DNA from: Salinirubellus salinus
Lineage (GTDB): Archaea > Halobacteriota > Halobacteria > Halobacteriales > Haloarculaceae
Assembly (NCBI RefSeq): GCF_025231485.1
Contig: NZ_CP104003.1
Location: 3,038,001-3,102,000, forward strand
Reading direction: 5' to 3'
DNA: 64,000 nucleotides
The position numbers and the translations under genes are program-made. Shown here piece after piece: positions 20,004 through 23,502 of the stretch (position 1 is the stretch's first letter; each line of letters opens with the position of its first letter). The notes below the pieces were generated by a model, which saw only the letters and a program-made list of their open reading frames with translations, searched no databases and was not told the DNA's origin.

Positions 20004-20035
20004 TCGGTGCACGACGGTCTCACGGCTTCACAACG

Positions 20036-20044
20036 CTTTTGTCC
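20036..20044 (+). promoter_or_regulatory. TATA-like box for the pheST leader transcript
   Basis: CTTTTGTCC begins exactly 30 bases before the ATG at 20066. The same box at 30 bases precedes rps6e, nucS, the SHOCT gene and the DUF5806 gene in this window, so transcription is expected to begin at or next to that ATG. No comparable box stands at this spacing before the pheS ATG at 20252. Confidence 0.7.
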
Positions 20045-20065
20045 GCGCACGGTAGAGCGTGACAC

Positions 20066-20146
20066 ATGCCCACCGACCCACGCGACGGGCGTCACGTTCC
20101 CCGACGAGCGACGCGGCCACGGGTCGGCTTCTTCTTCCGCGACTGA
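20066..20146 (+). CDS. Candidate phenylalanine leader peptide upstream of pheST
   Basis: A 26-codon frame at the predicted leaderless start: it begins MPTDPRDGRHVPRR and ends VGFFFRD followed by TGA, with three consecutive TTC (Phe) codons four to six residues before the stop. The gene downstream charges tRNA-Phe. In Enterobacteria pheST is controlled by a Phe-rich leader peptide and attenuation; no such control of archaeal pheST is known to me. The stop codon is the first three bases of a 9-bp stem. Translation of this ORF is inferred from promoter spacing. Confidence 0.55.
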   Translation: MPTDPRDGRHVPRRATRPRVGFFFRD

Positions 20147-20203
20147 CCGGGGCGGACTGCGCGGCGACGCCGAGGGGCGTCCCGCGACGGGAAACCCCGG
20201 TCA
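20144..20203 (+). promoter_or_regulatory. Two-level hairpin in the pheST leader
   Basis: TGACCGGGG (20144-20152) pairs perfectly with CCCCGGTCA (20195-20203). Inside it GACGCC (20166-20171) and GGCGTC (20176-20181) form a second perfect stem around GAGG. The first three bases of the outer stem are the stop codon of the Phe-rich ORF, so ribosomes stalled on the Phe codons or terminating there would cover its 5' arm. There is no T-run after it, so if it regulates, it may act on translation, stability or pausing. Confidence 0.55.
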
Positions 20204-20251
20204 CGGATGCGGAACCGCTAACTGACAGACCACCACAGACACACCCAGTAG

Positions 20252-21781
20252 ATGCCACGTAGACTCCCGGAGACACAGGTCGTCTTGCTCGAAGCGGCGA
20301 GCGCGACCGACGAGAAGACCGTCGACCGACTGGCCGAGGAGACCGGCGAGAAGGTGGAGACGCTCACCCGCGCCGCCTTCGAACTCGCCGACGAGGGCCT
20401 CCTCGCCGTCACCGAACGCACAGCACAGGACCTCTCGCTGACCGACGAGGCCCGCGAGTACCTCGAATCGGGGCTCCCCGAGCGCCGGCTCTACGACGCC
20501 GCACTCGACGCCGGCGCCGACGAGGAGTCCGTCTCGCTCGGACGAGTCATCGGCGCTTCGGGCCTCGAAGGCCCCGAGGTCGACATCGCGCTCTCGAACT
20601 TCGCCCGCAAGGGGTTCGGGAGCATCGACTCGGGCGAGATATCGGTCGCGCCGTCGGGGCCGGAGGTTGACCCGGAGGCCGACCCCGAGGCCGAGGCGCT
20701 CGCCGTCGTCGGCGACGACGGCGCCGACGCGGGCTACCTCGACGAGAACGTCCTGAACCGACTCGAATCGCGCGACCTGCTCGTCCGGAGCGAGACGACC
20801 GTCCGCTCCGTGACCCTCACGGACGAGGGGGTCAACGCCATGATGGAGGGGCTGGAGACCGCCGAGACGGTCGGACAGGTCACCTCCGAGATGCTCACCT
20901 CGGGCGAGTGGCGCGACGTCGAGTTCGCCGAGTACAACGTCGAGGCCGATTCGGAGGTCGAGTACGGCGGGCGGAAACACGTCCTCCGGCAGACTGCCGA
21001 CCGCGTGAAGGACGTCCTCGTCGGGATGGGGTTCGACGAGATGCAGGGCCCGCACGCCGACGCGGAGTTCTGGATCAACGACTGCCTGTTCATGCCGCAG
21101 GACCACCCCGCACGGACCCACTGGGACCAGTTCGCGCTGGACCTGCCGCCGATGAAGGACCTCCCCGAGGACCTCGTCGCGCGCGTCGAGGACGCCCACC
21201 GGAACGGCGTCGGCGAGGACGGCGACGGCTACCACTCGCCGTGGACCGAGGAGGTGGCCCGCGGCGTGGACCTCCGGGGCCACACCACCTCGCTGTCGAT
21301 GCGGTACCTCTCGGGCCACGAGGTCGGTGACCTCGAACCGCCCCAGCGGTACTTCTCCGTCGAGAAGGTCTACCGGAACGACACGCTCGACCCGACCCAC
21401 CTGCTGGAGTTCTTCCAGATCGAGGGCTGGGTGATGGCCGATGACCTCTCGGTGCGTGACCTGATGGGGACGTTCACCGAGTTCTACGAGCAGTTCGGCA
21501 TCACGGACATCGAGTTCAAGCCCCACTACAACCCGTACACGGAACCCTCGTTCGAGCTGTTCGGCACCCACCCGGAGACGGGCGAGATCGTCGAGATCGG
21601 CAACTCCGGCATCTTCCGCGAGGAGGTCCTGCGCCCGCTCGGCGTCGAGTGTGACGTGATGGCGTGGGGGCTCGCGCTGGAGCGCCTGCTCATGCTCATG
21701 TACGGCTTCGAGGACATCCGCGACGTCCACGGGACGCTGTGTGACCTCGACCTGCTGCGGACCACGGAGGCGGTCTACTGA
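20252..21781 (+). CDS. pheS: Phenylalanyl-tRNA synthetase alpha subunit
   Basis: Catalytic subunit of the class II alpha2-beta2 enzyme. The 509-residue protein has archaeal-type N-terminal winged-helix DNA/tRNA-binding repeats (about 1-200) and the class II core: motif 1 near HVLRQTADRVKDVLVGMGF, motif 2 in RYFSVEKVYRNDTLDPTHLLEFFQ, and motif 3 in WGLALERLLMLMYG, with the Phe-pocket EFWINDCLF/EPSFELFG segments. It shares TGATG with pheT. Transcription probably starts 186 bases upstream. Confidence 0.97.
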   Translation: MPRRLPETQVVLLEAASATDEKTVDRLAEETGEKVETLTRAAFELADEGLLAVTERTAQDLSLTDEAREYLESGLPERRLYDAALDAGADEESVSLGRVIGASGLEGPEVDIALSNFARKGFGSIDSGEISVAPSGPEVDPEADPEAEALAVVGDDGADAGYLDENVLNRLESRDLLVRSETTVRSVTLTDEGVNAMMEGLETAETVGQVTSEMLTSGEWRDVEFAEYNVEADSEVEYGGRKHVLRQTADRVKDVLVGMGFDEMQGPHADAEFWINDCLFMPQDHPARTHWDQFALDLPPMKDLPEDLVARVEDAHRNGVGEDGDGYHSPWTEEVARGVDLRGHTTSLSMRYLSGHEVGDLEPPQRYFSVEKVYRNDTLDPTHLLEFFQIEGWVMADDLSVRDLMGTFTEFYEQFGITDIEFKPHYNPYTEPSFELFGTHPETGEIVEIGNSGIFREEVLRPLGVECDVMAWGLALERLLMLMYGFEDIRDVHGTLCDLDLLRTTEAVY

Positions 21782-23502
21782 TGCCGGTCGTCGACGTCGA
21801 CCCCGACGAGCTGCGGCGGCTCACGGGCCACGAGGAGAAGGACGACGAGGAGCTCAAGTCGGACCTGTTCGCGCTCGGGCTGGAGTTCGAGGGCGAGACG
21901 GAGGACGGCGAGTTCCAGCTGGAGTTCGCCCCCGACCGACTGGACCGCCTCAGCGTGGAGGGGGTCGCCCGGTCGCTGCGCTACCAGTACGGCGACGACC
22001 GCGGGGTCTACATCCCGACCACGAACAGCGCCGAGTGGGTCATCGAGGTGGACGAGTCGGTCCCCGAGGAGCGCCCGTACGTCACGGGCGCCATCGTCCG
22101 CGGGCTGGACATGACCGAGGAGAAACTGGAGTCGCTCATCCAGTTGCAGGAGAAGCTCCACGCGACGATGGGGCGCAAGCGGGCGAAGGGCGCCATCGGC
22201 GTCCACGACCTCGCGATGCTGAAGGGTCGCGCCGGCGCGGGCGAGGGTGACAAGCCCAAGTCCATCACCTACCGTGGCGTGGACCCGGACGGCGACCGGT
22301 TCGTCCCGCTCGACGCGGACACGGACATGACCCCGCGCGAGGTGCTGACCGACCACGACACGGGCGCGACGTACGCACCGCTCGTCGAGGACCTGGAGCG
22401 GTTCCCGGCCATCTACGACGACGTGGGGCTGTTCTCGTTCCCGCCGGTCATCAACGGCAAGCGGACCGAGGTGGACGAGGGGACCCGCGACGTGTTCGTC
22501 GAGATGACGGGCACCGACCAGTGGACCATCGACCGGATGCTCAACATCGTCTGCTACGCGCTCGACGCCCGCGCGGGGCGCGTCGAGCTGGTGGACGTGG
22601 AGTACCCGGACCGCACCCTCGAGCGGCCGGACCTCTCGACGGACACGAAGACCGTCGCGCACTCGCGCATCGAGTCGGTGCTCGGCATCCCGCTGGACTC
22701 GGAGGCGGTCGTGGACCTGCTGGAGCGCTCGGGCCTCGACGCGACCGTCGAGACGGACGAGGAGGCCGGGACGGTCACCTACGAGGCCGGTATCCCGCCC
22801 TACCGCGTGGACGTGCTCCACCCGCTCGACGTGGTGGACGACGTGGGTCGGGCCTACGGGTTCAACGACCTCGAGCCGCGCTACCCGGACGTCTCGACGG
22901 TCGGCGGGCGCCACGAGCGCTCCCGCGTCGAGGACGCGGCCCGCGACGCCCTCGTCGGCCTCGGGTTCGAGGACCTCCTGAACTTCCACATGATCAGCGA
23001 GGCGGAGAACTTCGACCGCCTCTCCGTGGCGCCCGGTGACGGCTACGGTGCCGAGGAGCCGGTGACCATCACCGAACCCTACAGCGAGGACTACACCATG
23101 TTGCGGACGTGGGCGCTCCCCTCGCTGCTGATGGTCCTGGAGAACAACACGCACCGGGCGTACCCGCAGGACCTCGCGGAGATCGGCCTCGCGGCCCACC
23201 GCGACGACGCGGAGAACACCGGCGTCGCCGAACACCGGACCGTCGCCGCGGTGCTCGCCCGGAGTGAGGCCTCCTACGAGGACGCCAAGTCGCGGCTGGT
23301 GGCACTCGCGCGGGCGTTCGGCACGGCGGTCGAGACGCCCGCCACCGAGCACCCGTCGTTCATCCCGGGCCGCGTGGCCGACGTGGTGGTGGACGGCGAG
23401 ACGGTCGGTGTCATCGGCGAGGTGCACCCCGAGGTCGTCGTGGAACACGACGTGGAGGTGCCCGTCGCGGCGTTCGAACTTCGGCTCGACGCGCTGCGGT
23501 AG
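21781..23502 (+). CDS. pheT: Phenylalanyl-tRNA synthetase beta subunit
   Basis: The 573-residue subunit of the archaeal/eukaryal type, lacking the bacterial EMAP and B8 domains. It opens with MPVVDVDPDELRRLTG, followed by the B3/B4 editing fold, B5 domain (about 275-345, HSRIESVLGIPLD) and catalytic-like core with GRVADVVVDGETVGVIGEVHPEV near the end. It provides dimer architecture and editing of mischarged Tyr-tRNA. Starts within the pheS stop, giving one-to-one coupled synthesis. Confidence 0.97.
   Translation: MPVVDVDPDELRRLTGHEEKDDEELKSDLFALGLEFEGETEDGEFQLEFAPDRLDRLSVEGVARSLRYQYGDDRGVYIPTTNSAEWVIEVDESVPEERPYVTGAIVRGLDMTEEKLESLIQLQEKLHATMGRKRAKGAIGVHDLAMLKGRAGAGEGDKPKSITYRGVDPDGDRFVPLDADTDMTPREVLTDHDTGATYAPLVEDLERFPAIYDDVGLFSFPPVINGKRTEVDEGTRDVFVEMTGTDQWTIDRMLNIVCYALDARAGRVELVDVEYPDRTLERPDLSTDTKTVAHSRIESVLGIPLDSEAVVDLLERSGLDATVETDEEAGTVTYEAGIPPYRVDVLHPLDVVDDVGRAYGFNDLEPRYPDVSTVGGRHERSRVEDAARDALVGLGFEDLLNFHMISEAENFDRLSVAPGDGYGAEEPVTITEPYSEDYTMLRTWALPSLLMVLENNTHRAYPQDLAEIGLAAHRDDAENTGVAEHRTVAAVLARSEASYEDAKSRLVALARAFGTAVETPATEHPSFIPGRVADVVVDGETVGVIGEVHPEVVVEHDVEVPVAAFELRLDALR

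Follow-up and report, generated by a model that had tools for sequence, protein, structure and literature searches.

Leader-peptide attenuation is a textbook form of control in bacteria. The pheM leader and attenuator of pheST from E. coli, which is of the same type as trpL and hisL, comprises a short open reading frame (ORF) rich in codons for the cognate amino acid, followed by RNA structure that folds according to the position of the ribosome, and it acts through a terminator hairpin with a U-run and a competing antiterminator. Bacterial T-box leaders bind tRNA directly and need no ribosome. No case of leader-peptide attenuation in Archaea is known to us. The author of an earlier note on this stretch of DNA likewise knew of no such control in Archaea, and no archaeal case was found in the open-access literature that we searched (the search did not extend to papers behind subscription, among them the principal ribosome-profiling study of Haloferax).

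Published work on Haloferax volcanii bears on this question in two ways. Babski et al. (2016; PMC4983044) mapped the transcription starts of this species by dRNA-seq, and rows 12 and 13 of their Table 2 list a 26-aa ORF with a pI of 5.9 in the 150-250 nt 5' UTR of pheS (HVO_2948), with no additional start site at the gene itself, as well as a 23-aa ORF before the tryptophan--tRNA ligase gene HVO_A0127. Both are treated there only as possible small proteins or upstream ORFs (uORFs), and structured leaders are viewed as not typical of haloarchaea; the sections of that paper bearing on these ORFs mention no cognate amino-acid clusters, RNA element or regulatory reading. A separate study of hairpin-associated termination in Hfx. 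volcanii (PMC7237163) assayed one hairpin in vivo and found that it terminated 59% of transcripts, which makes an effect of a structured leader on transcription possible. Unlike the structure described below, that hairpin is located within coding sequence, and no connection with translation has been reported for it.

Here we describe the region upstream of pheS in the window, by which we mean the whole 64,000-nucleotide stretch of Salinirubellus salinus DNA that was analysed (Table 1). The host genome is 4.4 Mb in size, and its relatives are the haloarchaea. As with pheM, a short cognate-rich ORF precedes the same synthetase genes, and RNA structure past the Phe codons is positioned for ribosome-dependent folding; as with T-box leaders, a leader RNA would make a synthetase gene responsive to the charging state of tRNA. 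We consider it likely that the region is a leader-peptide control of pheST that senses Phe-tRNA supply by ribosome position, with translation of the ORF, the response to starvation, the direction of the effect and the output step being inferred.

Table 1. Features of the pheST leader region and genes (positions within the window).
Feature	Position	Strand	Evidence
Promoter P1 of the leader, BRE CAACG and TATA-like CTTTTG (20036-20041)	20031..20041	+	Sequence; consensus of relatives
Leader peptide ORF, 26 codons, MPTDPRDGRHVPRRATRPRVGFFFRD followed by stop	20066..20146	+	Sequence; 175 distinct family members 5' of pheS
Three consecutive Phe codons, TTC TTC TTC	20129..20137	+	Sequence; Phe cluster kept in relatives
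Helix P1, 5' arm, TGACCGGGG, includes the stop codon in this genome	20144..20152	+	Folding, covariation
Internal loop, 5' strand, CGGA (consensus YGGA)	20153..20156	+	GGA invariant in 43-sequence alignment
Helix/hairpin P2	20157..20190	+	Folding, covariation
Internal loop, 3' strand, GAAA	20191..20194	+	GAA without exception, followed by A in at least 90% (43-sequence alignment)
Helix P1, 3' arm, CCCCGGTCA	20195..20203	+	Folding, covariation
Promoter-like box of pheS (probable P2), GGAACCGCTAACTGAC	20211..20226	+	Conserved in most haloarchaea
pheS, phenylalanine--tRNA ligase alpha subunit	20252..21781	+	Pfam PF01409, E 1.4e-74
pheT, phenylalanine--tRNA ligase beta subunit	21781..23502	+	Pfam PF17759, PF03484, PF03483

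A Phe-rich leader ORF upstream of pheS

The earlier note had described a 26-codon ORF with a triple TTC near its stop codon, an ATG at promoter spacing and a pheS gene that begins 105 bases past the end of the ORF, and had recommended aligning the regions upstream of pheS in relatives. All of these features held, with CTTTTG starting 30 nt upstream of the ATG, TGA (20144-20146) as the stop codon and 105 nt separating the ORF end from the pheS start, and the same ORF with clustered Phe codons was found in the relatives. We sampled pheS-upstream regions from 80 named haloarchaeal loci, from relatives, from 146 genomes of the order and from 20 further genomes of one family, and counted as family members those ORFs whose final ten codons include three or more for Phe, which gave 175 distinct sequences. 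The peptides of this family lie upstream of pheS in haloarchaea and have the consensus M-[AP]-S-E-[PS]-H...G-F-G-F-F-F-A[-A]-stop. The uORF is present in approximately three quarters of the haloarchaea sampled and absent from approximately a quarter; no cognate Phe leader was found before pheS in 16 more distant relatives, a small sample.

All 175 distinct uORFs begin with ATG, their modal length is 26, and each peptide contains three to five Phe, the last of which lies 0-3 codons ahead of the stop in 171. The residues in the middle of the peptide vary freely while the Phe cluster is fixed just before the stop, and some leaders carry F-D-F, F-R-F or an F-F split by other residues. A search of 500-nt windows for ATG-initiated ORFs that are 20-50 codons long and have three or more Phe among their final 10 codons gave hits in 61 of 81 pheS-upstream regions, compared to 2 of 2173 control windows taken from other parts of these loci. 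The Phe-rich ORF before pheS is therefore real and beyond chance, and it meets the pheM/trpL-type criterion of a short upstream ORF with clustered cognate codons.

Across the 175 uORFs, TTC and TTT interchange at the Phe columns and all four codons occur at the Gly columns, indicating that the amino acids are what is kept. The earlier note had suggested looking for synonymous-site conservation, and at the Phe codons conservation is of the amino acid, with TTC and TTT exchanged. TTT, the rare Phe codon in these genomes, is enriched in the leaders, where it accounts for 135/649 Phe codons (21%) compared to 96/1527 (6%) in pheS genes (Fisher p 9e-22). At the start of the leader, ATGGCATCCGAACCC (MASEP, the first five codons), the third codon positions are conserved too, which suggests a constraint at the nucleotide level, for example from leaderless initiation, although its cause is unexplained.

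The promoter of the leader is also shared, with the consensus GCAACGTTTTT found at the same place in the 175 relatives and its T-rich box beginning 28-31 nt ahead of the ATG in 167 cases (29-30 nt in 155). The earlier note had found no promoter box at normal spacing for pheS, and this claim must be corrected: pheS is preceded by the promoter-like box GGAACCGCTAACTGAC, whose TATA-like part lies 34 nt upstream of the ATG. A corresponding box, GGAACCGYTAACTGAC, is highly conserved in most haloarchaea, whether or not a uORF is present, and usually lies 29-40 nt ahead of the start of pheS. Judged from sequence alone, it is likely to be a second pheS promoter (P2), the alternative being some other kind of site. 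On the promoter reading, basal transcription would be supplemented by a regulated contribution from promoter P1, and pheST could possibly be in part independent of the leader.

In Haloferax-like relatives the Phe leader, MVSEPKRGTRASEPTTDGFGFFFLTA, is 26 aa long with a pI of 5.94 and lies in a 5' UTR of 212 nt. By length, pI and the 5' UTR of these relatives, and without recourse to its exact mass of 2772 Da, the 26-aa ORF reported from Hfx. volcanii is likely to be the Phe leader. The published map thus concerns the same pheS locus with mapped starts, and the regulatory reading is the addition made here. The earlier note had proposed that 5' ends be examined, and the Hfx. volcanii map shows a long pheS 5' UTR that contains the ORF, without a separate pheS start. 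That the leader ORF and pheS share one transcript is accordingly reported by dRNA-seq for Hfx. volcanii (PMC4983044) and not for the organism studied here, in which a second promoter is likely.

The RNA element and its predicted geometry relative to the ribosome

The stop codon of the leader ORF was said in the earlier note to form the 5' end of a perfect 9-bp stem with an inner hairpin, and this held: TGACCGGGG pairs with CCCCGGTCA without a mismatch. RNA folding of 20144-20251 gave -49.6 kcal/mol (z = -3.98), and 0 of 200 shuffles were as stable. The note had also proposed a search for the stem in relatives, with the absence of the stem and of the Phe codons from close relatives as grounds for refutation. 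Both were found, and in relatives a covarying helix P1, the YGGA...GAAA internal loop and helix P2 follow immediately 3' of the stop. Among 43 aligned sequences, 11 of the 12 pairs had changed on both sides; cells changed on both sides numbered 122 compared to 45 in shuffles, and the covariation score was 0.633 compared to 0.201 (0 of 500 shuffles; 12 pairs). RNAalifold recovered the same two helices from the same alignment. As our first extraction had picked the register partly by pairing, the pairing test was redone with the arms placed only by the first YGGA and GAAA motifs, and with arms swapped among species as the comparison. Helix P1 was 83% paired under this control compared to 68% when swapped, and helix P2 88% compared to 55%.

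A covariance model of the element (R1) gives the copy in the window 29.7 bits. In 146 haloarchaeal genomes, 71 of its matches lie directly upstream of pheS, all but one of them 42-141 nt before the pheS match. That this is a general regulatory element was ruled out for most genomes, where matches away from pheS are weak and those inspected fall mostly in coding DNA. A second copy of the YGGA/GAAA element occurs in L152 (~1468-1527) and L153 (~1452-1511), from genomes G123 and G159 (probably Halorussus), with scores of 38 and 34 bits; as judged by eye, these copies lie upstream of a methyltransferase-like gene and have no Phe-rich ORF. No meaningful match to Rfam 15 was obtained with the region from the window and six relatives, which sets the haloarchaeal element apart from T-box leaders. 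The two-helix structure is thus a new conserved RNA element that is absent from Rfam. A kink-turn reading of the loop was dropped because the loop is symmetric and lacks a 3-nt bulge, an argument that rests on our own reasoning.

In 49 loci without a recognised uORF, a count from which the uORF-bearing L173 is left out, the element was found in only three organisms (L238, L051/L175 and L227), where inspection of the sequence revealed a uORF that is present but frameshifted or extended. The rarity of the element without the uORF indicates that the two have largely been gained and lost together. The exceptions are L273 and L275, which keep the uORF and have lost the element. In these two loci (genomes G070 and G044, ~2.1 Mb) the Phe leader ORF lies 35-37 nt before pheS, apparently without the promoter-like box.

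We measured the distance to the inner four pairs of helix P1 in 149 leaders. These pairs start a median of 7 nt past the first base of the stop codon, and less than 13 nt past it in 99% of leaders; measured from the first base of the last Phe codon the median is 16 nt, with 13 nt or more in 95% of leaders, and from the first Phe codon it is 28 nt, with 13 nt or more in 100%. In bacteria, the ribosome reaches approximately 12-13 nt past the first nucleotide of the codon in its A site, a value that we applied to the archaeal ribosome. If the two footprints are alike, helix P1 would escape a ribosome on the Phe codons and be opened by one that has reached the stop codon. On this assumption, another pheM/trpL-type criterion, a structure that is met differently by a stalled and a terminating ribosome, is fulfilled as well. 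This geometry provides the strongest mechanistic evidence for ribosome sensing, and it remains a prediction that borrows the bacterial footprint.

Proposed mechanism, output step and alternative explanations

The ORF, its Phe codons and the RNA element are shown to be conserved, as are their co-occurrence and geometry. In the mechanism that we propose, RNA polymerase would start at promoter P1 and a ribosome would load on the leaderless 26-codon ORF. When Phe-tRNA is plentiful the ribosome would reach the stop codon and its footprint would open helix P1, and when Phe-tRNA is scarce it would stall on the Phe codons, far enough upstream to keep the element folded. The folded element would allow the transcript to be extended or used for pheST; since a shortage of its product should call for more of a synthetase, we infer that this state, with its stalled ribosome, is ON. 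The likeliest OFF step would be factor-dependent termination of the FttA/aCPSF1 type or hairpin-assisted termination, and P2 would supply basal pheST expression. The reading offered in the earlier note, that ribosome position on the Phe codons controls folding of the leader, is supported as likely by the comparative evidence, and the control of expression itself is inferred.

The inputs to this mechanism, namely the Phe codons, ribosome position and the element, are well supported, but its output is not. TTTT follows the element in 0 of 149 leaders, which rules out an intrinsic terminator at this position. The 3' arm of helix P1 can pair downstream in 82/149 leaders compared to 64-79/149 when shuffled, which is not above the control and provides no sign of a competing hairpin or antiterminator. 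Pairing of the Gly-Phe codons with GAAACC was considered and rejected; it would favour GGT, but GGG and GGC predominate. Two statements of the earlier note therefore held, that there is no T-run, which is true here and in the 149 leaders, and that termination is not assured. With neither a U-tract nor a competing hairpin, the classic terminator/antiterminator switch is absent and the output step is unknown. As the U-run terminator and mutually exclusive hairpins are both unmet criteria, we do not class the haloarchaeal leader in the pheM/trpL family, from which it differs further in its two-helix element with a fixed YGGA/GAAA loop after the stop, its leaderless ORF and the archaeal transcription machinery.

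Among the alternatives, translational coupling survives best, although we consider it unlikely. Here a ribosome that ends the uORF would affect use of the pheS start codon on the long transcript, without transcription termination. In favour of this, no Shine-Dalgarno-like site precedes pheS in 148 of 149 leaders, and in two genomes the uORF ends 35-37 nt before pheS. Against it, pheS may be translated from a separate leaderless mRNA, and the gap between uORF and pheS, which ranges from 35 to 297 nt, is too variable for reinitiation as a general rule.

The remaining alternatives find little support. The element could be a binding site for a protein, either PheRS or a ribosomal protein, that exerts feedback control, with uORF translation only modulating access. 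Its strictly conserved loop, which could form consecutive sheared G-A pairs and is not required by the Phe codons alone, speaks for such a site, but a binding site by itself leaves both the Phe codons and the co-occurrence of element and uORF unexplained; we judge this very unlikely. Equally improbable in our estimation is nascent-peptide arrest, in which the G-F-G-F-F-F tail would stall the ribosome from the exit tunnel and gate the same RNA element in response to a cue other than Phe-tRNA. The peptide is indeed conserved beyond its Phe residues, in the alternate Gly and the MASEP start, but the controlled gene is the cognate synthetase, another synthetase has a cognate Trp cluster in a different peptide, and the tail is interrupted in the leaders with F-D-F, F-R-F or separated F-F. 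Finally, that the ORF encodes an independent small protein that merely neighbours pheST is likewise very unlikely: the ORF has its own promoter, pheS has its own conserved promoter-like box and small proteins are common in haloarchaea (PMC4983044), but the Phe cluster is fixed before the stop while central residues vary, the ORF is closely tied to an RNA element that is positioned with respect to its stop, and the Hfx. volcanii data contain no separate pheS start site.

Trp leaders before trpS and implications for Archaea

The proposed leader-peptide control may not be confined to pheST. We used TIGR00233 to collect TrpRS genes of the bacterial type (motif TGxGPSGP), and a short upstream ORF with W-x-W, usually WRW, was present at 13 of 13 testable bacterial-type trpS loci compared to 2.6% of control windows. 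One example is MQSAPTRWRWRTSGADSLAFAA, ending at the stop; in Haloferax mediterranei the leader is MVSTSHANCWRWHAFREVDSIAV (23 aa), and Hfx. larsenii and Natronorubrum aibiense share a Trp leader. The trpS copies on Haloprofundus and Halobaculum plasmids do not show the W pair, the YGGA/GAAA element was not seen by eye in the tails of the Trp leaders, and no cognate leaders were found before trpE, leuS or hisS in 30, 18 and 29 loci, respectively. The Trp leaders were observed upstream of bacterial-type trpS in L288-L296, L298-L302 and L337-L339.

A bolder reading, which we hold to be more likely than not, is that in haloarchaea ribosome position on cognate leader peptides, Phe for pheST and Trp for bacterial-type trpS, reports how much aminoacyl-tRNA is available, and that the Phe leader does so via a new class of structured RNA switch without an intrinsic terminator. 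The leaders of pheS define a new conserved RNA element. If the bolder reading is true, this would be the first case known to us in which a leader peptide exerts amino-acid-specific control in the domain Archaea. It would also open premature termination in Archaea (FttA/aCPSF1) to genetic analysis in the tractable Haloferax volcanii, and such a clade-wide example would show that transcription-translation coupling in Archaea is tight enough to act as a sensor.
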